Shown: piece after piece, positions 323 to 29,371 of the stretch
Position numbering within the stretch: the first letter of the stretch is position 1
Layout of the letters: every line of letters begins with the position of its first letter
Assembly (NCBI GenBank): GCA_017550525.1
Contig: JAFZOU010000114.1
Location: forward strand, 1-32,326
Direction of reading: 5' to 3'
From: Bacteroidales bacterium
GTDB taxonomy: Bacteria > Bacteroidota > Bacteroidia > Bacteroidales > UBA932
DNA length: 32,326 bases
Translations under genes and position numbers: made by a program
The notes under the pieces: generated by a model
Database searches by the model: none
Seen by the model: only the letters and a program-made list of their open reading frames with translations
What the model was told of the DNA's origin: nothing

Positions 323-4784
<4,462 letters not shown>

Positions 4785-4788
<4 letters not shown>

Positions 4789-7555: not shown

Positions 7556-7572
7556 CTTACGTTGATTTTTCA

Positions 7573-7580
7573 CAAAAATA
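7573..7580 (-). promoter_or_regulatory. putative -7 element of the polyferredoxin promoter
   Basis: On the minus strand this reads TATTTTTG, matching TAnnTTTG. A start site about 6 bases further would fall between the possible GTG start (7573) and the ATG at 7555, which supports the ATG as the true start. The -33 box is poor (CTTG about 21 bases upstream). Confidence 0.4.
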
Positions 7581-11112: not shown

Positions 11113-12197
11113 GTCATTCGCTGGATATCATCCCCGGAACAGAGTGGGGATTCTTCACACTTCCAAGGCCAATGTGCATTGCCGGCCCCTGCAGTGCGGA
11201 ATCAGAGGAGCAGGTGATGGAAACAGCCGCAGGCCTTAACGCCTTTGGCATTCACGTTTACCGCGCAGGTATATGGAAGCCTCGTACCCACCCCGGCTCT
11301 TTTGAGGGAGTGGGCACCCCCGGCCTCAAGTGGCTTAGGAAAGTGAAGGAAACCTACGGCATGAAGGTGTGTACGGAGGTTGCCAGTGAAAAACACGTCC
11401 TGGAGTGCATCAAATACGGAGTGGACATTGTATGGATTGGAGCGCGTACCAGCGCCAACCCCTTCCTCATGCAGGAGATTGCCGATGCCCTTGAGGGAAC
11501 GGACCTCCCCGTCCTTGTGAAGAATCCCGTGAATCCGGACATCGACCTTTGGATCGGAGCTCTGGAGCGCCTCAATAGGGCCGGGCTCCGGAAGCTGGGA
11601 GTCATCCACCGCGGATTCTCTACATCGGCCCCCATCCCTTACCGCAATGATCCCGGCTGGAAGCTTGCCATTGAAATGCGCTCCCGCTACCCTCAGATGG
11701 CATTTTTTGCCGATCCTTCACATATGGCAGGAGACCGCAAGTACCTCCACGAACTGTCCCAGAGGGCCATGGACCTTGGCCTTGACGGCCTTATGGTGGA
11801 GAGCCACTGCAACCCCGCCTGCGCTATGTCAGATGCAAAGCAGCAGCTTACCCCTCATGATCTCCAGACCCTTCTTGAGAGCCTTGTGATAAGGGAAAAC
11901 ACCTCCGACAACACCGCCTACCGTGACGGAATAGAGGCCCTCCGTGCCCGCATCGACGTGATTGACGACAAACTCCTGGATCTGCTGAAGGACCGTAATG
12001 AGGTGTCAAAGGCAATAGGAGAGTACAAGCGCAGCCACAACGTTGCCATCATCCAGGCAGGCCGATGGGAGCAGCTCCTGGCCGATATGGTGGAGCGCGC
12101 AGCAGCCCTTGGGGTCTCCGAGGCCGCAATCACCGCCATCATGACCGCCATCCACGACGAATCCGTGCGGGTTCAGAACCAGGTGCTAGAAGGTTAG
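11109..12197 (+). CDS. bifunctional 3-deoxy-7-phosphoheptulonate (DAHP) synthase / chorismate mutase
   Basis: A 362-residue fusion carrying the first step of the shikimate pathway and the branch-point isomerase to prephenate. Residues 1-260 are a type I-beta DAHP synthase (KDO8P-synthase-like): MCIAGPCSAESEEQV near 18-32, RAGIWKPRTHPGSFEG near 53-68, and the metal-site blocks FFADPSHMAG and VESHCNP. Residues about 275-362 are an AroQ-type all-helical chorismate mutase (LRARIDVIDDKLLDLLKDR). A C-terminal mutase is typical of this phylum and may also feed back on the synthase. Last gene of the frr-aromatic operon; a repeat-rich terminator region follows. Confidence 0.95.
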   Translation: MSHSLDIIPGTEWGFFTLPRPMCIAGPCSAESEEQVMETAAGLNAFGIHVYRAGIWKPRTHPGSFEGVGTPGLKWLRKVKETYGMKVCTEVASEKHVLECIKYGVDIVWIGARTSANPFLMQEIADALEGTDLPVLVKNPVNPDIDLWIGALERLNRAGLRKLGVIHRGFSTSAPIPYRNDPGWKLAIEMRSRYPQMAFFADPSHMAGDRKYLHELSQRAMDLGLDGLMVESHCNPACAMSDAKQQLTPHDLQTLLESLVIRENTSDNTAYRDGIEALRARIDVIDDKLLDLLKDRNEVSKAIGEYKRSHNVAIIQAGRWEQLLADMVERAAALGVSEAAITAIMTAIHDESVRVQNQVLEG

Positions 12198-13833: not shown

Positions 13834-16800
13834 ATGAGAAAAGCTTTTAAAAGCCTTCTGCTCGCATTCACTACGCTGATTGCGGGCACTGTCGCCTATG
13901 CTCAGGTCACTACATCGGCCCTCTCCGGCCGCGTGGTTGACCAGAACGGCGAACCAGTCGTAGGTGCTGCCGTGCTGGCTCAGCATGAACCCTCCGGCAC
14001 CATCTATGGCGCTGTTACCAACGCCGAAGGACGCTACGCCATCCAGGGTATGCGTACCGGTGGTCCTTACAAGGTTGACTTCAGCTGCCTTGGCTACTCC
14101 GATGCATCTTACACCGGCGTAGTTCTCCAGCTGGCCGAAACCTACTCCCTCAACGCCAAGATCGCTGAGAGCACAGAGATGCTTGAAGGAACTGTGGTTG
14201 TTGCTTCCCCCACCTCAAAGTTCGCCGCTCAGGAGCGCACCGGAGCTGTTACCAACATCTCCAATGACCAGATCCTGAGCCTCCCTACCGTAAACCGTAA
14301 CATTACGGACGTAACCCGTCTGTCACCTTACGGCGGTAACGGAATGAGCTTTGCCGGTTCTGACGGCCGTACCGCCAACTTCACCGTTGACGGTGCAAAC
14401 TTCAACAACAACTTCGGTCTTAACGACAACCTCCCCGGCGGTGGTAATCCTATCTCCATAGATGCCATTGAGGAGCTCCAGGTTGTTATTTCCCCTTACG
14501 ACGTACGTCAGACCAACTTCATCGGCGGTGGCGTAAACGCCATCACCAAGTCCGGTACCAACACCTTCAAGGGCACTGCATACATCTATCATAAGAATGA
14601 GAACATGCGCGGTAATGCCGTGGACGGTGATGAAATCTCCGGAGCACGTGCAACAGACCGCAGCACCACCTACGGCTTCACCCTGGGCGGACCCATCATC
14701 AAGAACAAGCTCTTCTTCTTCGTGAATGCCGAAATGGTGAAGACCCCTACCATCGCAAACCGCTGGAGGGCTTCCGAGGACGGTGTCGCCGTTCCCGACA
14801 ACTACATTTCCCGCACCACTATAGCAGACCTTCAGGCCGTTAAGGACTATGTGAAGGAGGCTTACGGATATGACACCGGTTCCTTCACAGACTTCCCCGC
14901 CAATGAGTCCAACTACAAGATCCTGGCCCGCCTGGACTGGAACATCAGCCAGAAGCACCATCTTGCTCTCCGTTACAACTACACTGGTAACACCTATTGG
15001 AGCGCACCTAACGGCACGTCCATGGACGGCGGTACACGTATGGTAGATTACCGTACCTCAAAGTCATCCATGTCTTATTCCAACGCCATGTACTCCATGA
15101 ATAACCTGGTGAATACATGGTCCCTGGATCTGAACAGCCGTCTTACTGACAATCTTTCCAACCAGTTCCTGGCAACCTTCTCCAAGCTTGACGATGTCCG
15201 CGGCACAAACTCCGATGAATTCCCCTTCATCGACATAACCCGTGGTGGCAACAACTACATCGCCCTTGGTTATGAGCTGTTCACATGGAACAATGCCGTT
15301 CACAACACCATCGCCAATGTGAAGGATGACCTCACTTATTATATCGGCAGCCACAAGATCACCGGAGGCCTCAGCTTCGAGTACCAGATGGCCGATAACC
15401 AGTACATGCGTAACGGTACCGGTTATTATCGTTACAACTGGGATGCCGGCACCAACATTGCCGATGTCTTTGCGGGCACTCCTGAGATTGTGAACCTTAC
15501 CTATGGTTACAACGGCGAAAAGTCTCCAGCAGCCCGAGTTCAGTTCTACAAAGCCGGCCTCTATGCCCAGGATGAGTGGAATATCTCAGACAATTTCAAG
15601 CTCACCTACGGCCTCCGTCTTGACGGTCTGTTCTTTGACAACAAGGACCTCATGACCAATGCCGCAATCCAGAAGCTTTCCTACTTCCCCAAGGCCAAGA
15701 ACTATCAGGAGACTCACATCGACACCGGTAAGTGGCCCACTTCCAGCGTCACAGTTTCTCCCCGTGTAGGCTTTACCTGGGATGTGTTCGGAGACAAGAG
15801 CCTGAAGGTTCGTGGTGGTACCGGCCTGTTCAGCGGCCGTCTGCCCCTTGTGTTCTTCACCAACATGCCCACTAATGGCGGTATGGTCCAGTACCAGGCT
15901 CAGATCAATGCTGCCAATGCAGCCAAGAAAGGCTTCTCAATCGACGAATTCGCCGGCGGCCTTGTGACCGATGCTAACGGCAAGGCTACCATCGACGCCC
16001 TCCTCCAGAAACTCCAGGGCCTTGGCTATCCCACCAGCGTTTCTCCTGAAGACGGAACCGTTCCTTCTGCAGTGAACGCCGTGGACCCCTCCTTCAAGAT
16101 GCCTCAGGTATGGAAGAGCTCCCTGGCCGTTGATTACACAATCCCCGTGAGCTTCCCTCTCACCGTTTCCGTGGAAGGTATCTTCAACAAGACCATCAAT
16201 GCAGTTGCAATCTCTGACTGGAGCATGAAGAATGTGGCCGGTTTCGCACGCTTCAATGGCGTTGACAACCGTCCCATCTATCCCGATGACTTCCGTAACG
16301 GCACCAAGGCATTCGTCCTTGAGAACACCTCAAAGGGTTATGGCTGGAGCGCCAACGTTACCGTAAACGCTCAGCCTGTTGAGTGGCTCAGCCTCATGGC
16401 TGCATACACCCACACCGAGAACAAGGAAATCACCGGTATGCCCGGCTCCGCAGCAGAATCGGCCTTCACCTATGTTCCTACCACCGAGGGCCCCAACTAC
16501 ATTCCCCTGCACAACTCACAGTACGTGACCCCTGACCGTATCGTTGCTTCCGCAACCGCACATGACAAGAGCGGCAACCACTACTCCCTCATATATGAGG
16601 CCTGGAGAGGTGGCTCAAAATACTCTTACATGACAACCAACGATATGAACGGCGACGGTTACAACTACGACGCAATCTATATCCCTACAGATGCACAGGT
16701 AGAGAACCGCGACTTCCGCTTCAAGTCCGACAGCGACAGAGACCGCTTCATGGACTTTGTCCACAACGATCCTTATCTGAGCAAGCACCAGGGCCAGTAT

Positions 16801-17145
16801 GCCGAAGGCTACAGCCTCTACTCTCCTTGGGTACATCGCTTTGATATCAGCTACAAGCACGACTTCGTGCTCAAGATCGGCAATGTCAAGAACACCCTCC
16901 AGCTCAGCCTGGACGTGAAGAACGTCATGAACCTCTTCAACTCAAGTTGGGGCGTATCCAAGTACCTGAATCCTGCAATCGGCTCAGATCCCCGTATCCT
17001 CAAATATGAGGGCGTAGACGCCGATGGTTACGCCACCTTCTCTACTCCTGACGCTATCAGCGGCAGCACCAAGACTTTCGTTTCCAACCACAGCCTTGGC
17101 CAGTGCTGGTATGCTTCTATCGGCATCAAGTATCTGTTCAACTAA
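13834..17145 (+). CDS. Oar-like TonB-dependent outer-membrane receptor
   Basis: A 1103-residue outer-membrane transporter. Residues 1-23 are a Sec signal peptide ending VAYA. A carboxypeptidase-regulatory-like domain (about 28-113, SGRVVDQNGEPVVGAAV) is followed by a plug (about 120-250, with TVDGANFNNNFG and GGVNAITKSGTNTFKG) and a long beta-barrel ending in aromatic-rich KYLFN. This arrangement matches Oar-type TonB receptors rather than SusC; no SusD partner is encoded nearby. It shares a transcript with the lipoprotein 18 bases downstream. Its substrate is not identifiable from sequence; the neighbouring nucleases suggest nucleic-acid fragments or phosphate esters. Confidence 0.88.
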   Translation: MRKAFKSLLLAFTTLIAGTVAYAQVTTSALSGRVVDQNGEPVVGAAVLAQHEPSGTIYGAVTNAEGRYAIQGMRTGGPYKVDFSCLGYSDASYTGVVLQLAETYSLNAKIAESTEMLEGTVVVASPTSKFAAQERTGAVTNISNDQILSLPTVNRNITDVTRLSPYGGNGMSFAGSDGRTANFTVDGANFNNNFGLNDNLPGGGNPISIDAIEELQVVISPYDVRQTNFIGGGVNAITKSGTNTFKGTAYIYHKNENMRGNAVDGDEISGARATDRSTTYGFTLGGPIIKNKLFFFVNAEMVKTPTIANRWRASEDGVAVPDNYISRTTIADLQAVKDYVKEAYGYDTGSFTDFPANESNYKILARLDWNISQKHHLALRYNYTGNTYWSAPNGTSMDGGTRMVDYRTSKSSMSYSNAMYSMNNLVNTWSLDLNSRLTDNLSNQFLATFSKLDDVRGTNSDEFPFIDITRGGNNYIALGYELFTWNNAVHNTIANVKDDLTYYIGSHKITGGLSFEYQMADNQYMRNGTGYYRYNWDAGTNIADVFAGTPEIVNLTYGYNGEKSPAARVQFYKAGLYAQDEWNISDNFKLTYGLRLDGLFFDNKDLMTNAAIQKLSYFPKAKNYQETHIDTGKWPTSSVTVSPRVGFTWDVFGDKSLKVRGGTGLFSGRLPLVFFTNMPTNGGMVQYQAQINAANAAKKGFSIDEFAGGLVTDANGKATIDALLQKLQGLGYPTSVSPEDGTVPSAVNAVDPSFKMPQVWKSSLAVDYTIPVSFPLTVSVEGIFNKTINAVAISDWSMKNVAGFARFNGVDNRPIYPDDFRNGTKAFVLENTSKGYGWSANVTVNAQPVEWLSLMAAYTHTENKEITGMPGSAAESAFTYVPTTEGPNYIPLHNSQYVTPDRIVASATAHDKSGNHYSLIYEAWRGGSKYSYMTTNDMNGDGYNYDAIYIPTDAQVENRDFRFKSDSDRDRFMDFVHNDPYLSKHQGQYAEGYSLYSPWVHRFDISYKHDFVLKIGNVKNTLQLSLDVKNVMNLFNSSWGVSKYLNPAIGSDPRILKYEGVDADGYATFSTPDAISGSTKTFVSNHSLGQCWYASIGIKYLFN

Positions 17146-17148
17146 TTT

Positions 17149-17156
17149 AAGGAGGA
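17149..17156 (+). promoter_or_regulatory. strong Shine-Dalgarno sequence
   Basis: AAGGAGGA is a near-perfect anti-SD match placed 7 bases before the ATG at 17164. Most other genes here lack any SD, as is usual in the phylum, so this site is notable and fixes the start. Confidence 0.8.
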
Positions 17157-17163
17157 TCAAACA

Positions 17164-18933
17164 ATGAAAGCAAAATATATCATCCTCTCAGTTTTTGCCC
17201 TCGTGGCAACAGTGGCTTGTGAGAAAGAAGGCGCTCACCTGATGAGTGAATTCCAGGCCGATAAACTGTATGTGACCATCCCTAACGAAGATGGTACCGC
17301 AACTATCAAAGTCACCGCCACGGAAGAGTGGTCGTTTGACTATGACATCAAAAAGGACACCACTGTCCTTGACGCAGAGAAAAAGACCAGGAAGAAATCC
17401 ATCGATGTAAATCAGCTGGAAGAGTATTCCTGGGTAGAGATTTCCCCTGCAAGCGGCAAGGCCGGTGAAACAACCGTTACCTTCAAGGATAACCGTAAGG
17501 CTTATTTCAAGAAGATAAATGGTGCCGATCCTACTGCCGACGACGACCTTGGCTCTTTCAACCAGACTTTCAAGGTGAAGGTTGGTGACAAGTACCAGAA
17601 TATCGTGGTTTCCGTAGGTACTCCTGCAAAGGCCGCCGTGGTAACCGTGAAGCAGCTTCGCGGCGAAGATCCCGACTTTACTCCCGTAGATGGCAAGACA
17701 TACCGCATCACCGGAACATGCACCAACGTTTACAACACCACGTATGGCAACTGGTATCTTAAGGACGACACCTCCGACAAAGACGTCACCATTTATGGTA
17801 CCGTAGATGCCACCGGCGCTTACAACTGGAGTGCAATCGGCATTGAAAGCGGTGACATCGTTACCGTAGAAGGCCCCTTCACACTCTACAACGGGACCAC
17901 TCCTGAGCTTGTGGATGTAAGTGTCCTCAAGATAGAGAAGGGCCTCCTTTCTTCCGTAAAGGGAACCTACATCTATATCCCCAAGGATAACACGCCTTTT
18001 GAAATCGAACTTCAGCAGAAAGGTACCGGCATCGGCGCAGAATCCAAGACTGACTGGCTTACACTTGGCAAAGCTTACACGGTAAACAAGAAGGGTAACG
18101 TTGTCTACACTGTTACACCTGAGGAAAATACCACCGGTGCAGCCCGTACTGGTTCCATCTTCTTTACCAGCAATGTCACCACCAAGGACAAGGATGGCAA
18201 AGATGTCCTTTCTACCTCAGAGATGACCATCACCATCACCCAGCAGGCCGATTTTGCAAAGGGAACCCTGAAGGATATCCGTGACCTCTGTGCACAGAAG
18301 AAAGCCTTTGACATTGAGCTCACAAAGCCTGTGACCGTAACCCTTGCAAGCGGCAAGTATATGTTTGTCGAGGATGGAGAGGTTGGTCTTACCCTCTACA
18401 ACAGCTCTGACAAGTATTCCGTGGGTCAGGAAATCTCCGGCCGCGTATTCGGAAAGAGCTCCGTCTACAACAACGTGCCTCAGGCAACTGGCTTCAACAG
18501 CTCCCTTGGCAAGGCCAAGGCCGCTCCCACAGATCCCACCAAGCTTCCCAAGGGAACAGAAGTTACCCTCCAGAAGGTCATTGACGAATGGGACACCTGG
18601 GCATATCGCCTTATCACTATCAAGGGTCTGTCCGTAAAGGATGAGATAAAGGCTACTTATCCCGTTTCAACCGGTGCTGACGAGCGTCATCCCAAGTATG
18701 ACAACGATGGTAAGGAAATTACAGAGACCGGAGACATGGAAGGTGTCGTGACTGACGGCAACAATGATATGGCAATTGTCATCAATTCTTCCAGCTTCTA
18801 TCTTAACATGGAGGTGGGTAAGAGATATGATGTCACCTGCGTTCCTTCATTCTACAAGAATGCCGACAAGCAGGTCGTTAAGGTCCTTGGTCTGTGGAGC
18901 ATTGACCACGTCAAGGAATTGGAGGCAGAATAA
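17164..18933 (+). CDS. surface lipoprotein with BACON-like and OB-fold/DUF5689-like domains
   Basis: A 589-residue lipoprotein (signal ending VATVAC, C19). The N-terminal part (about 30-165) looks like a BACON-type beta-sandwich (VTIPNEDGTATIKVTATEEW). Residues about 175-265 (YRITGTCTNVYNTTYGNWYL, then GIESGDIVTVEGPF) resemble an OB-fold of the nucleic-acid-binding type found in secreted nucleases. A second BACON-like segment (about 270-365) ends MTITITQQADF, and the C terminus (about 370-585) has DUF5689/OB-like features. It probably sits in the outer membrane as partner of the upstream receptor, a role equivalent to SusD without homology to it. Domain names are by eye and need profile confirmation. 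Confidence 0.75.
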   Translation: MKAKYIILSVFALVATVACEKEGAHLMSEFQADKLYVTIPNEDGTATIKVTATEEWSFDYDIKKDTTVLDAEKKTRKKSIDVNQLEEYSWVEISPASGKAGETTVTFKDNRKAYFKKINGADPTADDDLGSFNQTFKVKVGDKYQNIVVSVGTPAKAAVVTVKQLRGEDPDFTPVDGKTYRITGTCTNVYNTTYGNWYLKDDTSDKDVTIYGTVDATGAYNWSAIGIESGDIVTVEGPFTLYNGTTPELVDVSVLKIEKGLLSSVKGTYIYIPKDNTPFEIELQQKGTGIGAESKTDWLTLGKAYTVNKKGNVVYTVTPEENTTGAARTGSIFFTSNVTTKDKDGKDVLSTSEMTITITQQADFAKGTLKDIRDLCAQKKAFDIELTKPVTVTLASGKYMFVEDGEVGLTLYNSSDKYSVGQEISGRVFGKSSVYNNVPQATGFNSSLGKAKAAPTDPTKLPKGTEVTLQKVIDEWDTWAYRLITIKGLSVKDEIKATYPVSTGADERHPKYDNDGKEITETGDMEGVVTDGNNDMAIVINSSSFYLNMEVGKRYDVTCVPSFYKNADKQVVKVLGLWSIDHVKELEAE

Positions 18934-18955
18934 TATCTGTCCTGTCCTTACAATT

Positions 18956-18984
18956 AATCCCGGGGTGCACGCCCCGGGATTTTT
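18956..18984 (+). terminator. intrinsic terminator after the first receptor-lipoprotein pair
   Basis: The 9-bp GC-rich stem atcccgggg (18957-18965) / ccccgggat (18972-18980) has a 6-base loop and is followed by TTTT. It is a textbook intrinsic terminator and splits the envelope region into at least two transcripts. Confidence 0.88.
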
Positions 18985-19002
18985 ATTGCTGGAAAAAATG
19001 AT

Positions 19003-19010
19003 TATATTTG
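19003..19010 (+). promoter_or_regulatory. putative -7 element upstream of the BACON/FN3 lipoprotein
   Basis: TATATTTG matches TAnnTTTG and lies 42 bases before the ATG at 19053, directly after the terminator. No good -33 TTTG is seen at the expected distance because the terminator occupies that site. Confidence 0.5.
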
Positions 19011-19052
19011 TAATCTGAAAAAGGCAAGAATTAACCATAAATAACCCATAAG

Positions 19053-20726
19053 ATGAAACTAAAGAATCTCTTTTTTGCTGCAGCCGCCGTTCTGGGCGTA
19101 GTTGCCTGCCAGAACAAGCCTTCAGTAGCAGAGGGCGTTACCGTGGATCCTGCAGAGATCACGTTCGCAAAGGAAGGTGAGACAAAGGAAGTCACCATCA
19201 CAACCGCCGATGAATGGAAGCTCTCCGTCCCGGAGGATCTTTCCTGGCTTGAAATCTCCGACAAGAAGGGATCCGGTACCACCAAGATTACCCTCAAGGC
19301 CCCGGACAACACCGATGGTTATGACCGTAGCGGCAACATCACCGTAAAGGCTGGCATGTACAGCGCAAGGATCAAGATTTCCCAGCCCGGTAAGGGTGAG
19401 AAGGTGGACAGTCCCATCGAGAAACTCCTTGCAATGGAAGTTCCCTATGATGCCGCCGCCAAGAAAACCACTCCCATCGTGGGCGCTGTAGACCTTACCG
19501 ATATCTGGTGGGTTGCAAAATTTGACAAGACCGGTATCATCACTGATGGTACAGCATGCATCGTTGTTTACAGTAAGGATAAATCCATTGAAGGAGCTGT
19601 TGGTGAGAAGGGTACCATGAAGGGAGACCTTGACAACTACAGCTATCATAATCAGGTTATCAATCCTGTTTTCACAAAGACCGGTACAGTTGAGGTCAAT
19701 CATGGCACCGCTCTAGAGCTTAAGGATCAGATTGACACCTACAATTGGGAGGGTTCCCCTATCATCTATGTTCACGTTATAGGTACGGCCCGTGAGGTTA
19801 CGTCAAGCGGAAAGCAGTATATCAATATCTTCCTCTTCGACAACGATGGCAAGCAGCGCTCCAGGGATGTTTCCTTCGCTTCCAACTCGGTTGATGGTAC
19901 TCCTTATAAGGATAAGGACATCGATTTCTACGGTTACTATGTTTCCGGTACAAACCACGTTTCCGTAATGCCCGTTGGTGAGATCACCGTCAAGGGAGAT
20001 GCGGCTCCGGATTATAAGCTTACAGTAAGCGCAAAGCAGACTGAAACCGGTTTTGAGGCTTCCTGGAATGAAGTGGAAGGTGCCGATAAATACAACTGGG
20101 CGCTTCTGAAGGGTGATGAGAATGGAACCAAGGTGGACGGTGGAGACGTCACCGAAGCCAGCGTAAGCAAGGATGTTGAGTTTGAGTATGGTGCCACTTA
20201 CACCGTTGTGGTAAAGGCTCTCAAGGGCTCCGAGGAACTTGTCAGCGCAAATGCATCTTTCACTGCACGCGACAAGAGCAATACTGACGCCACCACCATA
20301 GAGCTCTCATTTGAGGCGTGCCCCGAAGGCTTCCCTTCCAGCAAGACATTGGATGAGAATACTTACACCATAGGCGGATATGAGTTCACCTTCAAGGGTG
20401 CAGGAGACGGCAACGGCTATTATTGGTCATCCACCAACAAGGTTATCATTATCGGCAAGAAGGATGCATACATCATTTTCCCTTCAATTGAAGGAAAGGC
20501 CCTTGTAAATGTAACCTTTACTACCGGTTCAAGTGCTTCCGAAAATGTGATTCTTGACATTGCCGACAAAGACGGAAAGCTTTACGGAATCAATACAGAA
20601 AAGCTTAAGAAGGGAACAGAATACAGCTGGGATGTGAATAACTCTGCTGCCGGTGAGAAGTGCCGCATTGTTGTTACCAATGCATACAACGCTCAGTTCC
20701 AGAATCTCACCCTTATCTACGAATAA
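19053..20726 (+). CDS. BACON- and fibronectin III-containing lipoprotein
   Basis: A 557-residue lipoprotein (signal ending VLGVVAC, C19). Residues about 27-112 are a BACON domain (VTVDPAEITFAKEGETKEVT, then DLSWLEISDKKGSGTTKITL). The middle part, about 115-315, is a beta-rich module with OB-like features. Residues about 318-405 fit fibronectin type III (YKLTVSAKQTETGFEASWNE, then YTVVVKALKG). The C-terminal 150 residues look like a beta-sandwich binding module (GNGYYWSSTNKVIIIGKKDA). No catalytic motif is seen, so a surface binding role is likely. It starts a new transcript after a terminator and lies 80 bases before the nuclease gene. Confidence 0.75.
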   Translation: MKLKNLFFAAAAVLGVVACQNKPSVAEGVTVDPAEITFAKEGETKEVTITTADEWKLSVPEDLSWLEISDKKGSGTTKITLKAPDNTDGYDRSGNITVKAGMYSARIKISQPGKGEKVDSPIEKLLAMEVPYDAAAKKTTPIVGAVDLTDIWWVAKFDKTGIITDGTACIVVYSKDKSIEGAVGEKGTMKGDLDNYSYHNQVINPVFTKTGTVEVNHGTALELKDQIDTYNWEGSPIIYVHVIGTAREVTSSGKQYINIFLFDNDGKQRSRDVSFASNSVDGTPYKDKDIDFYGYYVSGTNHVSVMPVGEITVKGDAAPDYKLTVSAKQTETGFEASWNEVEGADKYNWALLKGDENGTKVDGGDVTEASVSKDVEFEYGATYTVVVKALKGSEELVSANASFTARDKSNTDATTIELSFEACPEGFPSSKTLDENTYTIGGYEFTFKGAGDGNGYYWSSTNKVIIIGKKDAYIIFPSIEGKALVNVTFTTGSSASENVILDIADKDGKLYGINTEKLKKGTEYSWDVNNSAAGEKCRIVVTNAYNAQFQNLTLIYE

Positions 20727-20748
20727 TTGATTTTTAACAACTTAACCT

Positions 20749-20786
20749 AAAAGGGCTGCCCGGAGACAAACTTCGAGCACCCTTTT
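20749..20786 (+). terminator. long imperfect hairpin before the nuclease gene (terminator or attenuator)
   Basis: Arms aaaaggg-c-tgc-c-cggag and cttcg-a-gca-ccctttt pair with small bulges around an acaaa loop, and the distal strand ends in TTTT. No TAnnTTTG promoter lies between it and the ATG at 20807, so it may partly stop transcription from the upstream lipoprotein gene and lower expression of the genes that follow. Confidence 0.6.
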
Positions 20787-20806
20787 GGGTCTTTAAAAGC
20801 TTAGAT

Positions 20807-21949
20807 ATGAAATCCAGAATCCTTGGTCTTGCGGCTCTGCTTGCAGTGTCTCTGGCAGCGATTTCCTGTCAGGGTACTGACCCTTCCGGTGAACAGGATG
20901 TTATTCCGGTCATGAAGGTGCCCCGTGAAACGGAGGCTGCCGCCGGAGGCTCCCAGTTTGTAAAAGTTGCTGCCGTGGGGCAGTGGACACTGTCTGTAGA
21001 TTATATTGACGGTGACGGATGGATTCATCTTAGCAAAACAACGGACAGCGGCAATGCTTCCGTGGATATGACAATAGACCCCAATGAGGCTGAGACTCCG
21101 CGCAAGGCAACCCTTGTTCTTAAAACAGCTAAACACGAGGTCTCCAAAGAAATCACCCAGATGGGAAAGGTGACAGCCGCCACATCCGGATGGCTGGAGC
21201 TTCCCGCATTTGAGCATAAGGAAGGATTCTTCTTTGGAACCCACTCCATGGATGGAGGCGCATACGTGAGCGAGGAAGAGAGCGGCGTCCGAAACTGGTC
21301 ATTCTATTATGACTATGACGCATATGTATCCTGGTGGGTGGCATATCCCCTGAACCGTAGCCTGAGGGGCAGCGGCAGCCGTAGTGACATGTGGCAGGCA
21401 ACAGACCCCCTCCTTCCCGCCGATGCTGTTTGCGACATTTCTGGCGGCTCATATGGCGGTGGCTGGACCCGTGGCCATCAGATTCCATCGGCCGACCGCC
21501 TGGATTATGAGGCCAATGTCTCCACGTTCTATCCCACCAATATGACTCCTCAGGATTACGATTTCAACGGAGAGATCTGGGCTAATCTTGAGGGTGCGGT
21601 TCGCAACTGGTCGTTCTCCTCAGATACATTGTATGTTTGCACCGGGGCCGATATCCGCAACTCCTACAACTGGTCAGGAAACAAAACCGGCCATGCCGCC
21701 AAGGTGCCCACTCATTACTACAAGGCCCTTCTCAGAAAGAGAGGGCAGGAGTACTCCGCTGTCGGTTATTATATGCCCCACACATCAAGCATTGCCGGAA
21801 ATGATTATCAGGACTACGTCTGCTCCATCTCAGAACTTGAGACCCTTACCGGCATAGACTTCTTTGTAAACCTTCCGGCCCTTCTTGGCGCAGACAAGGC
21901 CAAGGAAATAGAAGAGGCTTCCCCTTCAGAAACACTGAAAAACTGGTAA
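20807..21949 (+). CDS. lipoprotein DNA/RNA non-specific endonuclease with N-terminal BACON-like domain
   Basis: A 380-residue predicted outer-membrane lipoprotein (signal ending AAISC, C21). Residues about 32-122 are a BACON-like module (VPRETEAAAGGSQFVKV). The rest is a NUC-family (Serratia nuclease/NucA type) beta-beta-alpha-metal nuclease. The active-site block is TRGHQIPSADR with the general-base H224; the family usually has D-R-G-H, so the Asp is Thr here. TFYPTNMTPQ and FNGEIWANLE near 240-262 supply the metal-binding Asn region. It likely degrades extracellular DNA and RNA at the cell surface. The next gene starts three bases after its stop. Confidence 0.88.
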   Translation: MKSRILGLAALLAVSLAAISCQGTDPSGEQDVIPVMKVPRETEAAAGGSQFVKVAAVGQWTLSVDYIDGDGWIHLSKTTDSGNASVDMTIDPNEAETPRKATLVLKTAKHEVSKEITQMGKVTAATSGWLELPAFEHKEGFFFGTHSMDGGAYVSEEESGVRNWSFYYDYDAYVSWWVAYPLNRSLRGSGSRSDMWQATDPLLPADAVCDISGGSYGGGWTRGHQIPSADRLDYEANVSTFYPTNMTPQDYDFNGEIWANLEGAVRNWSFSSDTLYVCTGADIRNSYNWSGNKTGHAAKVPTHYYKALLRKRGQEYSAVGYYMPHTSSIAGNDYQDYVCSISELETLTGIDFFVNLPALLGADKAKEIEEASPSETLKNW

Positions 21950-21952
21950 CCT

Positions 21953-23029
21953 ATGAAAAGAACCATCGTAATAATCGCAGCCCTTGTGCTGCTGGCCATT
22001 CCCCGTACGGCCGATGCCCAGAAGCATCGCAGCTATGTGATTGGCTTCTACAACCTTGAAAACCTCTTTGACACCTATCACGACGAAGGCAAGAACGACT
22101 ACGAGTACCTGCCGGACGGCGCCAACGAGTGGACAGAGGAAAAGTATGCCAAGAAGCTTAAGAACATGGCACGCGTGATTGCCGATATGAAAAAGGATAA
22201 CGGTGCCTGGCACGCCGTCCTGGGAGTATCCGAGGTTGAGAACCGCCACGTCCTTGAGGACCTTGTGAGTGAGCCCGCAATCGCAGAGGCCAACTACCAG
22301 ATTGTCCATTATGACAGCCCGGACCGCCGCGGCGTGGACTGCGCGCTGTTTTATCGGCCCAATATATTCAAGTACATCACCTCCGAGGCCATCCCGTTCA
22401 CCTTCGAGGACTCCCGCATAGACTGGAGCGCATGGACCGAGGAAGAGAAGGAAGCCTTCCGCACCCGTGATGTCCTGATGGTCCGCGGCACCATTGACGA
22501 CGAGATGTTTGCATTCTTTGTGTGCCACCTTCCTTCCCGTCTTGGCGGTAAGGGGGCCGATCTCCGTCCCCGCGGCGCAGAGATTGCCTACCAGAGGGCC
22601 ATGGAACTCCAGGAGGAATTCCCCGGAATCAAGATTGTGGTGATGGGCGATATGAATGACAACCCCACGGATGTCTCCATGACGGACTATCTCCACGGAA
22701 AGGAATTCATCGACGATGTTGAGGAAGACGACTTCTTTGACCCGTTCCTCAGCATGATCAAGGCCGGTTACAGCTCCCTCTATTACCGGGGCGCGGGCAA
22801 TATCTTTGACATTGTTATGGTGAATAACGCCCTGGCAAATGCCCCCGCAGGCACTTTCCAGATCCAGCCCATCACCAAGAAAAAGTTCTACGGCCGCGTT
22901 TTCTCAAAGCCCTACATGACCAACCAGAACGGCCAGTACAAGGGCACCCCGTTCCGCACCTTCTCCAACGGCGCTTTCGTGAACGGTTACTCGGACCACT
23001 ATCCCACATACATTGTGATCAAAAAGTAG
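21953..23029 (+). CDS. secreted endonuclease/exonuclease/phosphatase (EEP) family enzyme
   Basis: A 358-residue EEP-fold enzyme with a signal peptide ending TADA (cut near residue 22). Visible active-site blocks, in order, are YNLENLFD (N34), GVSEVENR (E94/E96), CHLPSR (H192), GDMNDNP (D233, N235) and SDHYP (D348, H349), so the fold looks catalytically complete. Members cleave phosphodiesters or phosphomonoesters in nucleic acids, nucleotides or inositol phosphates; which one cannot be told here. Three bases separate it from the nuclease gene, so the two probably act in sequence outside the cytoplasm: the nuclease makes oligonucleotides and this enzyme trims or dephosphorylates them. Confidence 0.88.
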   Translation: MKRTIVIIAALVLLAIPRTADAQKHRSYVIGFYNLENLFDTYHDEGKNDYEYLPDGANEWTEEKYAKKLKNMARVIADMKKDNGAWHAVLGVSEVENRHVLEDLVSEPAIAEANYQIVHYDSPDRRGVDCALFYRPNIFKYITSEAIPFTFEDSRIDWSAWTEEEKEAFRTRDVLMVRGTIDDEMFAFFVCHLPSRLGGKGADLRPRGAEIAYQRAMELQEEFPGIKIVVMGDMNDNPTDVSMTDYLHGKEFIDDVEEDDFFDPFLSMIKAGYSSLYYRGAGNIFDIVMVNNALANAPAGTFQIQPITKKKFYGRVFSKPYMTNQNGQYKGTPFRTFSNGAFVNGYSDHYPTYIVIKK

Positions 23030-23030
23030 A

Positions 23031-23057
23031 GAGATTCTTCTCTTCGCTCAGAATGAC
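23031..23057. repeat. REP-like imperfect palindrome between EEP gene and second receptor
   Basis: The stretch begins gagattct and ends agaatgac with a tctc-rich centre, the same GAGAT...ATGAC frame as the two copies at 6743 and 6785 but with a weaker core. Its final atgac supplies an in-frame ATG (23053) upstream of the true start of the receptor at 23071. Confidence 0.65.
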
Positions 23058-23070
23058 AAAACCAACCGAT

Positions 23071-26000
23071 ATGACTAAAAAACTATTACTGACCTTCGCT
23101 GCAGCCCTGTCGGCCGTGAGCCTTCTGGCCCAGGCGCCGCAGTTTGTGGATCCCGGCACCAGGGACGGCTATGCCGGCGGCGTGAAGGGTAAGGTCGTGG
23201 ACCGTAACGGCCGTGCGCCCATCGAGAACGCCCAGGTGGTCCTCATGCAGGGCGCGGAGCAGATAGAGACCGTACAATCGGCCCAGGACGGCTCCTTCCT
23301 TATTTCCTCCCTGCCGGATGGTACGTATGTCCTCAGGATCACCGCTCCGGAGTTCCTCGAGTCCCAGGTGCAGGTGACCGTGGCCGATGGCTACGTAAAG
23401 AACATGTTCAACCTTTCCCTCACCGGAATCCAGCATGTGACGGACGTAGACGACGACTCCTTCGCCAACTTTGACATGGACGACTCCGGCTTCAACGACA
23501 ACCCCACCATCCTGTTCGGCAGCAATGACGTGTTCAACAACATTGCGGGCTTCAACTTCTCCGCAGTGCGTTTCCGCGCCCGCGGTTACAGTTCTGAAAG
23601 CCAGGAGGTTTACCTTGCCGGCGTCAAGATGAACGACGCAATCACCGGCTATGGCCCGTTCTCCCTGTGGAGCGGCCTCAACGAGGCTATGCGTTCCAAG
23701 GAAACCGTGAACGGCGTAGAGGCCACTGACGTTGCCCTTGGCAGCTACAACGGTGTTACCAATATCTTCGGCACTGCCTCAGAGGTCCGCAAGGGCCTTC
23801 GCGGAAGCGTCCTCACCAACAGCGCCCTCTACCGCCTGCGCCTCATGGCTTCCTACGCCACCGGCCAGATGGACAACGGCTGGGCTTTCGCGGCCAACGT
23901 GAGCGCCCGCCTTGGCGGCAACGACTGGATTGACGGTGTGTATTACCGCTCCTTCGCATATTATCTTGCGGCCGATAAGATCTTCAACGACACCCACAAG
24001 CTAAGCTTTGCTATCTTTGGAACGCCCGGTGAAAGGGGAGCGCAGAACTCATCCACCCAGGAGGTGTACAACCTCATGGGGGACAATATGTATAACTCCA
24101 ACTGGGGTTACCTTAACGGGAAGGTTCGTAATACCCGTGTACGTAAGACCCATGAACCCATTGCCTTCCTGAAGTGGGATTTCACCCCTTCGGATAAGTT
24201 TGAGAGCCATACAACCCTCCTCTTCCGTTTTGGCTCCAACGGCTATACCGCAATGGACTGGTACAACGCCCAGGATCCCCGTCCGGACTACTACCGTAAC
24301 CTCCCTTCATACCTCTATAACCCGGATCCGGATTACAAGCGCAACAATCTTGAAAAGGCCACGGCAGCCTTCCAGGCATGGAAAGCCCAGGATCCTTCAA
24401 TTGTCCACTTCAACTGGGACCGCATCTATCAGGTGAACCAGATGAGTGAGAACGGCCGCAGCAAGTATGTCCAGGAAGAGCGCCGCGTAGACCAGAAGGA
24501 CCTCAACCTTGCATTCAACTTCAAGTATCGGCCCCTCCAGAACCTCACGGTCACGGGCGGCCTGAATGGCAAGTTCAATGTGACGGAATACTATAAGGTC
24601 CTGGCCGATCTCCTTGGAGGTCAGTACTTTGTGGACATAGACAACTTTGCCGACAGGGATTTTGCCGCAGAGCCCTACATGGCCCAGAACGACCTTGACT
24701 ACTACCTCTCCCACAACGGTCAGGCACGTATCCTCCACAAGGGAGACAAGTACGGCTATGACTACAACGTCCACGTAATCAATGCGGGCGGCTGGGTAAA
24801 CGGAGAGTATACCATCGGCAACCTTGACATCAACCTTGGCGGCCGCCTTGGCTACACCAGCTTCTGGCGTGAAGGCCTTGTGAGAAAGGGCCTCTTCCCG
24901 GGAATGACGTATATGGATCCCCTTACCGGAAACACCGTTGAGCCTTCAGCAGAGGCTGGTATCTATTCCACCTCCAAGGGCAATTCAGACAAGGCCAACT
25001 TCCTTACCTATGCCGGTAAGCTTGGTCTCAATTACGTGATTGGCGGCAACATGAGGGTTTATGCAAACGTGGGTTACTTCCAGGACGCCCCTACTTTCCA
25101 GCAGGTGTTCGTGAGCCCCCGTACCCGTAACGACATGGTTCAGAACCTGAGCCCCATCAAGACCTTCTCCTCGGATATCAACTGGCAGTTCAGCGGCAGC
25201 GGCATCAATGCCCGCGTCACCGCATACTACACCACCATCAAGGGCCAGAGCAAGGTCATGAGCGCCTACGATGACGTCCAGAACGCCTTCTCAAACTTCG
25301 CCCTCAGCGGAATCGACCAGCGCAACATGGGTATCGAGCTTGGCTTCAAGGTCCCTACCTACATTGTTCCCAATCTCTCCGTACAGGGTGTCCTTTCACT
25401 TGGAGAAGCCATCTACACTTCCAATCCCAAGATGATGCAGACGCTGGATAACAGCGCAACGCCCGTTGCATTTGACGGCCAGTACATCATTGACGTCCCT
25501 TACTGGAAGGAGAGTCCCGTGTACAAGAAGGACGCCTGGGGCAACTATACTGCTGCACTTGACCGCAAGCAGAAGCACTATGTGCCTTCAACGCCCCAGA
25601 CAGCCGTATCCCTTGGTCTGAGCTGGAACTACAACTACTGGTTTGTTGAGGCCGATGTAGAGTACTTCGACCGCGCATACCTTGATATGAACCCTCTCTA
25701 CCGCACCCAGTACGCCGTGGAAGGCCCCGACCGCAACGTCTATTTTGACGCAGAGGAAGAACTGGCGGCTATCGGCCGTAATCCCGAGGACGATTCAATC
25801 GCACTCAACGAGATCGAGGCCATGACCACCCAGGAGAAGTTTGCCCCGGCATTCCTCCTGAACGCATCCGTGGGTAAGTCCTGGTACATCCAGCGCAAGT
25901 ATCAGCTTGGCTTCTCACTCAACGCCAAGAACCTCCTCAACAACAGGAATGTCAAGACCGGCGGTTACGAGCAAACCCGTATGGTGGACAACACCGCCTC

Positions 26001-26085
26001 CAAGACCCGTTACTACCGCTTTGACTCCAAGTACTTCTATATGTCCGGTATCAACTATATGCTTAACATTTACTTCAGATTCTAA
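23071..26085 (+). CDS. TonB-dependent receptor with carboxypeptidase-regulatory-like domain (second receptor)
   Basis: A 1004-residue outer-membrane receptor. The ATG at 23071 gives MTKKLLLTFAAALSAVSLLAQ, a clean signal peptide; an in-frame ATG at 23053 lies inside a repeat and is rejected. A regulatory-like domain covers about 25-115 (VKGKVVDRNGRAPIENAQVV), the plug about 130-250 (FRARGYSSESQEVYLAGVKM), and the barrel ends INYMLNIYFRF with the terminal Phe expected of outer-membrane proteins. It is not SusC-like and has no SusD neighbour; the lipoprotein five bases downstream is the likely partner. Its place straight after two secreted nucleases makes nucleotides, nucleosides or oligonucleotides plausible substrates, but this is inference. 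Confidence 0.88.
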   Translation: MTKKLLLTFAAALSAVSLLAQAPQFVDPGTRDGYAGGVKGKVVDRNGRAPIENAQVVLMQGAEQIETVQSAQDGSFLISSLPDGTYVLRITAPEFLESQVQVTVADGYVKNMFNLSLTGIQHVTDVDDDSFANFDMDDSGFNDNPTILFGSNDVFNNIAGFNFSAVRFRARGYSSESQEVYLAGVKMNDAITGYGPFSLWSGLNEAMRSKETVNGVEATDVALGSYNGVTNIFGTASEVRKGLRGSVLTNSALYRLRLMASYATGQMDNGWAFAANVSARLGGNDWIDGVYYRSFAYYLAADKIFNDTHKLSFAIFGTPGERGAQNSSTQEVYNLMGDNMYNSNWGYLNGKVRNTRVRKTHEPIAFLKWDFTPSDKFESHTTLLFRFGSNGYTAMDWYNAQDPRPDYYRNLPSYLYNPDPDYKRNNLEKATAAFQAWKAQDPSIVHFNWDRIYQVNQMSENGRSKYVQEERRVDQKDLNLAFNFKYRPLQNLTVTGGLNGKFNVTEYYKVLADLLGGQYFVDIDNFADRDFAAEPYMAQNDLDYYLSHNGQARILHKGDKYGYDYNVHVINAGGWVNGEYTIGNLDINLGGRLGYTSFWREGLVRKGLFPGMTYMDPLTGNTVEPSAEAGIYSTSKGNSDKANFLTYAGKLGLNYVIGGNMRVYANVGYFQDAPTFQQVFVSPRTRNDMVQNLSPIKTFSSDINWQFSGSGINARVTAYYTTIKGQSKVMSAYDDVQNAFSNFALSGIDQRNMGIELGFKVPTYIVPNLSVQGVLSLGEAIYTSNPKMMQTLDNSATPVAFDGQYIIDVPYWKESPVYKKDAWGNYTAALDRKQKHYVPSTPQTAVSLGLSWNYNYWFVEADVEYFDRAYLDMNPLYRTQYAVEGPDRNVYFDAEEELAAIGRNPEDDSIALNEIEAMTTQEKFAPAFLLNASVGKSWYIQRKYQLGFSLNAKNLLNNRNVKTGGYEQTRMVDNTASKTRYYRFDSKYFYMSGINYMLNIYFRF

Positions 26086-26090
26086 GAGTT

Positions 26091-27371
26091 ATGAGAAAGT
26101 CCATTATTGCAATCGCCGCCCTTGCGGCACTCGTTTCCTGCCGGAGTCTGATAGAAGAATGGCAGCCGGTTGTCACGTTCAGCCAGCCGGATAAGGTTGA
26201 CTTTGTCCCCGTGGACATGGACGATGAAGTCAATACCACCATTGCCGACCTAAAGGCCATGTACAAGGAACACGGAAAGCCCGTGGTCATTTCCGGTGCC
26301 AAGATCCTGAAGGCCCAGGTTGTGTCATCCGATGAAGACGGCAACATCTACCGTGAACTCTACATCCAGGACGCTACCGGCGGCATCTGCCTCAAGCTTG
26401 GCCGCTCCAGTTCCTATGATGATTATAAGGTGGGTCAGATCCTTTACATTGACTGCGAAGACCTCTGCATAGGAGAGTACGGTTACAAGACCGGAAACTA
26501 CGGTGGAGGCGGTCTTCTCCAGCTTGGCGTTCTTGGTGACGGCTGGCAGGAGTATCTGGACGGAGACACCAATGAAGTTCCGGAATACGAGACATCCTAC
26601 ATTGACCTTGTCCCCATCATTTCAAAGCACATTTTCAGGGGAGAGATCCTGGATGAGGATGAGCGTATCAAGCCCGCCACACCTACCGGGGCGGAGCTTT
26701 CCAGCGATGCCTTCAAGAATGGCCTGGCTCCCGCAGCCGTGGGTAAGCTCACCAAACTCACAGGCCTCAAGATCAAGGGGGAGGTGTTTGCCCTCCTGTA
26801 TCCGGATTCCAACCTCAATCACGACAAAAACAACTCCTGGAACCGTCTATTCCTTTCCGACGATGACCCGATGAATTTTGATGAGCCATATGAAGGATAT
26901 CCCAAATATCCTCACAACCTTATCCACTGGGGCCTTACCAAGCGCCGCACCGTGGATCATCTTGAAAGGGGAGACTGGGATGATCTAAAGCTTGGAGATT
27001 CCGCGGCCGATATTAAGAATAACAATACCGTTGGTACCCGCAGGGTAGACGCCAAGAACTTCGGCTATGGCTACATTGCCGCAGAGCCTGAGACCTACGA
27101 TGATGCAGAGACATACAGGCAGGTTCTCATCCGCAATGCAACCGCACAGAGCGTGAGCCACTACTTCAACTATGACGGAGCAGAGGTCCAGATCCGCACC
27201 AGCGGCTATTCCCGCTTTGCCGATATCCCCATCCCCGCCGACGTCCTGGATGGCTCTAAGAAGATTGATGTGATCGGCATCATGTCCCGTTACCAGGGCG
27301 CGGCCCAGTTCATGCTCCTTGACGTCTTCTACGAAGGCAACAACACATCACTAATCAAAGACGTGTATTAA
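26091..27371 (+). CDS. DUF5689-like lipoprotein (receptor partner)
   Basis: A 426-residue lipoprotein with signal ending LVSC (C17). Residues about 45-260 fit the DUF5689 type of OB-like domain: TTIADLKAMYKEHGKPVVI, then VVSSDEDGNIYRELYIQDAT and GICLKLG. The C-terminal 160 residues (LERGDWDDLKLGDSAADIKN, then VDVIGIMSRYQGAAQFML-like end) form a second beta-rich part. No catalytic motif is seen. Proteins of this type commonly lie beside Oar-like TonB receptors in Bacteroidota and are thought to be surface components. Coupling is tight: 5 bases after the receptor and overlapping the peptidase start by one base (TAATG). Confidence 0.78.
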   Translation: MRKSIIAIAALAALVSCRSLIEEWQPVVTFSQPDKVDFVPVDMDDEVNTTIADLKAMYKEHGKPVVISGAKILKAQVVSSDEDGNIYRELYIQDATGGICLKLGRSSSYDDYKVGQILYIDCEDLCIGEYGYKTGNYGGGGLLQLGVLGDGWQEYLDGDTNEVPEYETSYIDLVPIISKHIFRGEILDEDERIKPATPTGAELSSDAFKNGLAPAAVGKLTKLTGLKIKGEVFALLYPDSNLNHDKNNSWNRLFLSDDDPMNFDEPYEGYPKYPHNLIHWGLTKRRTVDHLERGDWDDLKLGDSAADIKNNNTVGTRRVDAKNFGYGYIAAEPETYDDAETYRQVLIRNATAQSVSHYFNYDGAEVQIRTSGYSRFADIPIPADVLDGSKKIDVIGIMSRYQGAAQFMLLDVFYEGNNTSLIKDVY

Positions 27372-29371
27372 TGAAAATCAACACTTTTATTGCGGGGGCT
27401 GCACTGGCCCTCGCTTTCAGTATGACAGCTTGTAAACAGCAGAACATTTTCTTTGAGGATTGGAACACTCCTTACGGCACAGCTCCCTTCTCACAGATAA
27501 AGGAGGCCGATTACCTCCCCGCCTTCAGGGCCGGAATCAAGGAGGAAAAAGCCAATGTGGAGGCCATAATAGCCTGCAAGGACGCTCCTACCTTTGAGAA
27601 CACCATCCTTGCCCTGGAGAAGTCAAGCCCCATCCTTGACAGGGTAGAAGGCGTATTCTTCAACCTTTCAGAGAGTGATTCCACCCCTGAGATGCAGGCA
27701 ATTGAGGAAGAGATCCTTCCGGAGCTCACCGCCGCATCCAATGAGATCTATATGAATCCGGATCTCTTTGCCCGCGTGAAGGCCGTCTATGACAATCAGG
27801 AAGGCCTCACCCGTGAGCAGCAGATGGTGGTGAAGAAGATCTACCAGAGCTTCGAGCGCAACGGTGTAGGCCTTGAAGGAGAAGCCAAGGCCCGTTTTGC
27901 CGATATCCAGACCCGCCTTGCCACCCTGAGCCAGAAATTCGGCCAGAATCTCCTTGCAGAGAACAATGCCTTCAAGGAGGCTACCGGCATCACCGTAAGC
28001 GACTACTATGACTTCATGGGCTCCTGCCCGGACCGTGAAAAACGCAAGGCCGTCTTTGAGGCCTACAGCTCCCGCGGCAACCACGGAGACGAGCATGACA
28101 ACAACGCAATTGTCCTTGAGGTGCTGAAACTGAGGGCAGAAATGGCAGAGCTTCTTGGCTACCCGTCCTTTGCGGCCTTCCAGCTCTCCGACAAAATGGC
28201 CGGAAGCCCTGAGACCGTTGATGCCTTCCTCCAGCCCATCATGGACGCCTCCATGCTCAAAGCTAAGGCCGATATGAAGGAGATGGCAAAGCTTGCAGGT
28301 CACAAGATCGAGGCCTGGGATTACAGCTACTATGCAGAGAAACTCCGCGCTCAGAAGTTTGCCCTGGACGAGTCCCAGACAAAGCCTTACTTCCAGGCCG
28401 ACAGCGTCCTCAAAGGCGTCTTTGCCGCAGCCCACATGATTTACGGCATCAACATTGAGCCCGCACCGGAGGTTGAGGTTTACAACCCTGCGGCATCGGC
28501 CTATAAACTCACTGATGCGGACGGAAGCCTCATTGGCATATTCTATAAGGATTACTACGTGCGTCCCACCAAGCGCGGCGGCGCCTGGATGAACAATTTC
28601 CGTGAGCAGGAGACTGGTGTAAGGCCCGTGATTGTTAACGTGTGCAACTTCCCGGCTCCCGGAGATGACCCCACGGATGCCATTCCTTCACTGCTTTCAA
28701 TTGACAATGTCCAGACCGCGTTCCACGAGTTTGGCCACGCCCTCCACGGTTTCCTTTCACAGTGCAACTACAAGACCGTTTCCGGCACTTCCGTTGCCCG
28801 TGACTTTGTGGAGACATTCTCCCAGTTCAATGAGAATTTTGCCTTTGTGCCTGAAATCCTTGCCGTTTACGCCAAGGATTACCGCACCGGAGAGCCCATT
28901 CCCGCAGAGCTTGTGTCAAAGATCCGCAGCGCCCTCAAGTTCAACCAGGGCTTCATGTGCGGAGAACTCTGCGCAGCCTCCATCCTTGACATGAAGTGGC
29001 ATGAATTATCGGCCTCAGAACTGGCCGCATTCAACGGAGCCGAGGACATCCGCGCCTTTGAGGCAAAGGTGTGCCGGGAGATGGGCCTTATAGATGAGAT
29101 CATCCCGCGTTACCGCACCACCTACTTCAACCACATCATCGCCAGCGGTTACAGCGCCGGCTACTACAGCTATCTCTGGAGCGAGGTCCTGGCCGATGAC
29201 GCCTGGGAGAAGTTTGTGGAGGATGGCATCTTCAACCCCGAGACCGCAAAGTCCTTCCGCCAGACCTTCCTTGAGAGGGGCGGCTCTGAAGAGCCCATGA
29301 CGCAGTACCGCAACTTCCGCGGCGCCGATCCCGACCCCGCAGCACTCTCCCGTGCCAGGGGGCTTGAATAG
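27371..29371 (+). CDS. dcp: M3 family metallopeptidase (peptidyl-dipeptidase Dcp-like), lipoprotein
   Basis: A 666-residue M3A zinc peptidase. The signal ends FSMTAC (C21), so it is a predicted lipoprotein acting in the periplasm, unlike the cytosolic E. coli enzyme. The zinc motif HEFGHALHG starts at H452, and the third ligand Glu is E481 in DFVETFSQFNENF. NPAASAYKLTDADGSLIGIFYKDYYVRP and the C-terminal SAGYYSYLWSEVLADDAWEKF region are typical of oligopeptidase A/Dcp enzymes. It probably trims short peptides. It overlaps the DUF5689-like gene by one base, so it is on the same transcript; whether it serves the same pathway is unclear. A strong terminator follows. Confidence 0.93.
   Translation: MKINTFIAGAALALAFSMTACKQQNIFFEDWNTPYGTAPFSQIKEADYLPAFRAGIKEEKANVEAIIACKDAPTFENTILALEKSSPILDRVEGVFFNLSESDSTPEMQAIEEEILPELTAASNEIYMNPDLFARVKAVYDNQEGLTREQQMVVKKIYQSFERNGVGLEGEAKARFADIQTRLATLSQKFGQNLLAENNAFKEATGITVSDYYDFMGSCPDREKRKAVFEAYSSRGNHGDEHDNNAIVLEVLKLRAEMAELLGYPSFAAFQLSDKMAGSPETVDAFLQPIMDASMLKAKADMKEMAKLAGHKIEAWDYSYYAEKLRAQKFALDESQTKPYFQADSVLKGVFAAAHMIYGINIEPAPEVEVYNPAASAYKLTDADGSLIGIFYKDYYVRPTKRGGAWMNNFREQETGVRPVIVNVCNFPAPGDDPTDAIPSLLSIDNVQTAFHEFGHALHGFLSQCNYKTVSGTSVARDFVETFSQFNENFAFVPEILAVYAKDYRTGEPIPAELVSKIRSALKFNQGFMCGELCAASILDMKWHELSASELAAFNGAEDIRAFEAKVCREMGLIDEIIPRYRTTYFNHIIASGYSAGYYSYLWSEVLADDAWEKFVEDGIFNPETAKSFRQTFLERGGSEEPMTQYRNFRGADPDPAALSRARGLE

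Follow-up and report, generated by a model that had tools for sequence, protein, structure and literature searches.

A five-gene module at positions 19053-27371 of contig JAFZOU010000114.1, from a Bacteroidales bacterium (assembly GCA_017550525.1), is best read as an outer-membrane DNA-import complex whose main role is more likely to be transformation, perhaps combined with DNA scavenging (probability about 0.6). The whole stretch analysed, 32,326 nucleotides in length, is referred to as the window. In order, the module encodes a BACON lipoprotein (lipoprotein B), a lipoprotein non-specific endonuclease of the DRGH type (NUC), a secreted EEP-fold enzyme, a TonB-dependent receptor (TBDT2) and a DUF5689 lipoprotein. 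DNA uptake for transformation was favoured as main role because TBDT2 and the DUF5689 protein are, judged by profile alignment, orthologous to a pair on which natural transformation of Riemerella anatipestifer strictly depends. Import of nucleic acid by the module is likely, and transformation is somewhat likelier than a purely nutritional use.

The receptor-DUF5689 pair and natural transformation of R. anatipestifer

According to the available text of PMC8459023, two neighbouring genes of R. anatipestifer are essential for its natural transformation: RA0C_RS04915, encoding a CarboxypepD_reg protein of the outer membrane, and RA0C_RS04920, encoding a DUF5689 protein. Markerless deletion of either gene brought transformation below detection. 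Mutants of tonBA and tonBB showed reduced transformation. When named genomes were scanned for the receptor, R. anatipestifer CCUG25054 (locus L152) was found at 93%, together with 63 other loci. The gene order in L152 is ComEC, a 145-aa gene, a carboxyl transferase, EEP, TBDT2 and DUF5689 with choice-of-anchor J. This order fits the locus tags from RS04895 (ComEC) to RS04915/RS04920 in steps of five, and RS04910 would be the EEP gene; the L152 receptor was equated with RS04915 by synteny, in another strain than that of the mutants. As far as the available text of PMC8459023 goes, transcription of RS04910 was measured, but the gene is absent from the tables of mutants, and the strand-degrading enzyme of transformation was left unidentified. 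A short distance downstream of the pair, CCUG25054 carries type II CRISPR genes (Cas9, Cas1; L152:15664-20775).

Aligned by hhalign with the receptor profiles of the R. anatipestifer side, TBDT2 reached a probability of 100 and an E value of 9e-173 over 903 columns at 30% identity, and the DUF5689 profiles aligned with an E value of 3e-35; no rows were shared in either comparison. By this measure the essential pair has its Bacteroidales orthologue in TBDT2-DUF5689. In both organisms the receptor gene is followed by that of the DUF5689 lipoprotein and an EEP gene adjoins, co-directional in the window and divergent in R. anatipestifer. The window adds the DRGH nuclease and the BACON lipoprotein, whereas ComEC, which is near the R. 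anatipestifer pair, lies outside this window. The choice-of-anchor-J/DUF5017 part had no match in the DUF5689 protein of the window, although choice_anch_J is present in L152; it was not counted as defining because DNA binding has been proposed as a role of the entire DUF5689 protein.

A five-gene module conserved in the family

Twenty regions from the family of the window's organism, picked for a DUF5689 match, were compared. A lipoprotein or other open reading frame (ORF), NUC, EEP, TBDT2 and DUF5689 follow each other on one strand in 19 of these 20 loci, the first ORF being mostly a recognisable lipoprotein. All 19 NUC-bearing loci have an ORF of at least 268 aa ahead of NUC, the one in L033 being cut by the contig start. 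In the exception, L046, TBDT2 is divergent, EEP lies on the other strand and the DUF5689 protein has 829 aa. An alignment of both window lipoproteins with 18 relatives gave matches at E<=0.01 to BACON in 17/20, to an OB family in 6/20 and to DUF5689 in 5/20; PF01336 matched 6 of the 20 at this cut-off, with a best E value of 1.2e-11.

Apart from the genes of the module, ORFs antisense to them and the lipoproteins, no further ORF family occurred in six or more of the 20 family regions. Two ORF families were present in five loci, a C69 peptidase and one without a Pfam match. The C69 peptidase is encoded close to the module in L039, L040, L042, L043 and L051 (Pfam checked in L040 and L042). In L042 (6575-7594) and L043 (11698-12720), DUF5689 is immediately followed by another EEP gene.

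At the level of genomes, TBDT2 was found with at least 600 bits in 27 of 79 family members, with five more having weak matches only (E<=1e-30); the window's own genome contains one match at E<=1e-30. EEP matches of at least 185 bits occurred in 26/27 genomes with TBDT2 versus 5/52 without (Fisher 8e-15), and those of at least 250 bits in 23/27 versus 0/52, both cut-offs having been set post hoc. NUC was rejected as a marker of the module, being non-specific: NUC relatives of 262-399 bits also occur in 16 genomes that have no TBDT2. At 400 bits or more NUC was detected in 20 family genomes, all with TBDT2, but the profile was derived from those very loci, and 7 of the 27 TBDT2 genomes had no NUC match of this strength.

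Distribution across the order, class and phylum

The receptor searches in phylum and order scored three first-look candidates per genome, and the resulting receptor counts are lower bounds. Strong matches in the phylum search (247 genomes) all fell within the window's class, the others being partial and weak. In the window's order the receptor was found at E<=1e-100 in at least 122 of 247 sampled genomes and at least 77 of 165 genera, as one match per genome among the three candidates scored, except in G490 and G577.

Gene neighbourhoods were analysed in 144 loci (20 family, 40 class, 20 order and 64 named loci; L106 and L168 come from the same genome). A DUF5689 gene lies at most 1 kb behind the receptor and on the same strand in 140 of them (family 20/20, class 36/40, order 20/20, named 64/64). 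The four misses are L086, the weak receptor matches L120 and L121, and L118, in which the receptor is split in two ORFs and DUF5689 comes after the second. The gap between receptor and DUF5689 measures 429-659 bases in 9 of the 140 loci, where a small gene could fit between. EEP occurs within 1.5 kb of the receptor in 120/144 loci (family 20, class 24, order 15, named 61), on the same strand in 22 and on the opposite strand in 98. Twelve of the 16 class loci without a nearby EEP gene stem from one genus. In genus g31, L096 and L108-L118 keep the receptor-DUF5689 pair without a nearby EEP gene, and L094 and L107 have one.

NUC matches above 200 bits were restricted to the 19 family loci and L082, L083, L234 and L240, with none in the 64 named loci. 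Of the module's parts, the receptor-DUF5689 pair is the most widespread and NUC the least so. For the co-occurrence of receptor, DUF5689 protein and nuclease, for which the first-pass annotation had proposed a survey across Bacteroidota, this means that receptor, DUF5689 and EEP do occur together across the class, but NUC mainly in family loci.

These distributions bear on two further explanations. The module might act as a barrier or clear external DNA by destroying it, be it phage DNA, extracellular traps or biofilm DNA. A probably surface-located nuclease with conserved catalytic residues would suit such a function, yet a TonB receptor would be unneeded and it is the receptor-DUF5689 pair, not NUC, that is most widespread; we regard this explanation as highly improbable. 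TBDT2-DUF5689 might also form a general envelope or export complex, the transformation loss in R. anatipestifer being indirect. The occurrence of DUF5689 within multi-domain lipoproteins (5/20) and the peptidase genes adjoining some modules fit such a role. From Weeksellaceae to the window's order, however, the pair usually has nuclease-type genes as neighbours, and OB-type domains occur in the lipoproteins; this explanation is improbable, if less so than a barrier.

Protein families, catalytic residues and structural models

The families that had been read from motifs agree with Pfam for all seven genes of 13834-27371 (Table 1), except that the OB module of lipoprotein A (PF01336, E 0.0021) scored 18.4 bits, below the cut-off of 27. 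In NUC, residues H224, N245, N254, E262 and R266 were invariant in 20/20 aligned sequences, and their spacing agrees with what we take to be that of Serratia nuclease. The pneumococcal competence nuclease EndA, presumably of the same family PF01223, offers an analogy, being a DRGH non-specific nuclease close to an apparatus for DNA entry; the NUC protein differs in being a BACON-bearing lipoprotein, and its role in uptake is putative.

Likewise, E94, E96, H192, D233, N235, D348 and H349 of the EEP enzyme were invariant in 20/20 aligned sequences. Its N-terminus has a signal-peptide-like start and no lipobox. The enzyme shares the EEP catalytic domain with extracellular DNases of the ExeM/NucH type, but the R. 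anatipestifer EEP matched NF033681 far below the cut-off (E 7.5e-05, 21.8 bits against 300) and the EEP of the window had no NCBIfam match.

A TBDT2 model of medium quality (pLDDT 64.5) matched TonB receptors, with a best E value of 3.5e-23. A sequence search of solved structures gave two weak matches for TBDT2, to a beta-sandwich protein (E 0.04 and 0.12). The same sequence search returned no match for DUF5689 or EEP. With a mean pLDDT of 52.2, the DUF5689 model was poor past roughly residue 150, and its Foldseek list was mixed, headed by a mannanase at E 0.12; the modelled N-terminal domain is suggestive of an OB fold and may be OB-like.

Proposed function and the nutritional alternative

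Starting from the families, gene order, orthology and conserved catalytic residues described above, we infer surface exposure, DNA as ligand, inward transport driven by TonB, separate tasks for the two nucleases and a use for transformation in this organism. The putatively OB-like DUF5689 protein and the BACON lipoprotein would hold DNA at the cell surface, where the DRGH nuclease could nick or cut it. TBDT2, driven by TonB, would pass the DNA through the outer membrane, and in the periplasm the secreted EEP enzyme might trim it or remove one strand.

Several observations weigh against transformation as the main role. Almost all genomes searched have competence genes, which do not track the module; as a discriminator for TBDT2 their profiles were dropped as uninformative. 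DprA was not found in the window's draft genome, which is 91% complete, and ComEC lies in two frames there and is short in its genus. Flavobacterium johnsoniae has homologues, and according to the available text of PMC8459023 it was not transformable as tried. Furthermore, the presence of two nucleases in the module fits feeding on DNA. An HHH_3 protein was found in the window's genome. In the ComEC regions L243-L258 the protein is short in many family genomes and about 700 aa in others, a split that looks largely genus-wise, and both kinds co-occur with the module.

The alternative is nutritional use of nucleic acids: surface cutting, import of oligonucleotides and further trimming in the periplasm to gain phosphate, nitrogen or nucleosides. 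In Bacteroidales the module would then play no part in transformation. The first-pass annotation had proposed nutrition by analogy with polysaccharide loci; it did not consider transformation, the subject of the experiments found on orthologues. Two nucleases, both with invariant catalytic residues, stand in one operon with BACON/OB lipoproteins, and presence of the module is unrelated to competence genes. The layout also resembles SusC/SusD loci, in which a TonB receptor is followed by a lipoprotein with enzymes alongside. In the window, however, DUF5689 takes the place of SusD, and Pfam and NCBIfam gave neither SusD nor a glycosidase among the cluster proteins scanned, in line with the earlier view that this is not a carbohydrate locus. 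Nutrition alone sits poorly with the strict requirement for the orthologous pair in R. anatipestifer transformation, as reported in the available text of PMC8459023, and with the lack of NUC in the named loci. Nor did an additional gene family recur in six or more of the 20 family regions, though their flanking genes were not checked one by one for functions in nucleoside or phosphate use. Altogether, we consider nutrition alone rather unlikely and prefer DNA import with transformation as the main role.

More tentatively, and at somewhat less than even odds, TBDT2, DUF5689 and EEP could be the general importer of transforming DNA in the outer membrane of Bacteroidia, replacing the type IV pilus used elsewhere. 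The EEP enzyme, and in the family NUC too, would then make single-stranded DNA for a ComEC without nuclease domain.

The pair itself was already known from Flavobacteriaceae (PMC8459023); in its available text this source says that homologues are spread through Bacteroidetes, yet also that the receptor is found only in Flavobacteriaceae. Apparently new are the tracing of the pair through the window's order, its usual EEP partner and the five-gene form with NUC and BACON lipoprotein. Among the matches listed from the PMC literature there was no paper on the pair in Bacteroidales. For Porphyromonas gingivalis, the available text of PMC11532111 states that ComEA, ComEC and ComF are needed, leaves DNA import into the periplasm unexplained and calls the conjugation pilus uninvolved. 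With the receptor of the essential pair in at least 122 of 247 order genomes and an EEP gene named, the outer-membrane and strand-degradation questions become testable, and DNA uptake in Bacteroidota bears on gene spread among them.

Two-unit layout of the cluster

The first-pass annotation had treated seven consecutive same-strand genes (13834-27371) as a single system. All seven are complete ORFs on the plus strand in the order given there, and that of the last five is the one kept in 19/20 family loci. The intergenic gaps are 18, 119, 80, 3, 23 and 5 bases; the fifth had been given as 41, which fits a TBDT2 start at the later in-frame ATG at 23071. The 119-base gap between lipoproteins A and B contains a strong terminator, a GC-rich hairpin followed by TATATTTG, called -7-like after TAnnTTTG, which we take to be the -7 consensus. 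The terminator region (67 nt) folds with -24.6 kcal/mol (z -3.89), a value reached by 1 of 200 shuffles.

Table 1 Features of the cluster and its downstream neighbour
Feature	Positions	Strand	Remarks
Oar-like TonB-dependent receptor 1 (TBDT1)	13834..17145	+	PF25183 E 1.3e-50, PF13620 E 2.4e-20; unit 1
Lipoprotein A, BACON and weak OB-like module	17164..18933	+	PF13004 E 2.4e-06; unit 1
Intrinsic terminator between units 1 and 2	18956..18981	+	11-pair stem, T-rich tail
TATATTTG, -7-like element before unit 2	19003..19010	+	Full two-part pattern not found there
Lipoprotein B with BACON, first gene of the module	19053..20726	+	PF13004 E 1.1e-09
NUC, lipoprotein DNA/RNA non-specific endonuclease, DRGH type, with BACON	20807..21949	+	PF01223 (Endonuclease_NS) E 2.2e-35
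Secreted EEP-fold enzyme (Exo_endo_phos_3)	21953..23029	+	PF19580 E 6.1e-90
TonB-dependent receptor 2 (TBDT2), CarboxypepD_reg	23053..26085	+	Alternative start 23071
DUF5689 lipoprotein	26091..27371	+	PF18942 E 7.8e-35
M3-family peptidase lipoprotein	27371..29371	+	PF01432 E 4e-123; 1-base overlap with DUF5689 gene

In the two relatives where they were seen, G022 and G033 (loci L036 and L038/L259), TBDT1 relatives at 31% adjoin metK. G022 belongs to the window's genus and has TBDT1 placed between metK and the module, no separate lipoprotein A being seen there; in G033 (L259) a lipoprotein-A-like gene (26%) follows the TBDT1 relative, both being across metK from the module. The cluster thus looks like two units, unit 1 at 13834-18933 and unit 2 at 19053-27371. 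Because of the terminator and the metK-side placement in relatives, TBDT1 and lipoprotein A are best treated apart and are probably outside the uptake module, as judged from three genomes including the window's. On the same grounds a single seven-gene system was rejected. The joint binding, cutting and import earlier ascribed to all seven genes is supported for unit 2 by gene order, co-occurrence and OB-type lipoprotein domains, but not for unit 1.

Other genes of the window

The M3 peptidase gene is perhaps co-transcribed with the module but not conserved with it, a relative adjoining the module in L032 and L036 (2/20 family loci). Further upstream, 8238-12197 holds a compact aromatic amino-acid cluster with prephenate dehydratase, an aminotransferase, prephenate dehydrogenase and a 3-deoxy-D-arabino-heptulosonate 7-phosphate (DAHP) synthase with chorismate mutase domain. 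On the minus strand, 4785-7573 encodes an aldo/keto reductase with twin-arginine (TAT) signal and 4Fe-4S site and a multi-4Fe-4S protein, their genes overlapping by four bases. A subtilase (S8) of 1023 aa at 1717-4788 contains an immunoglobulin (Ig) domain and a sub-threshold match to a type IX secretion system (T9SS) sorting domain.

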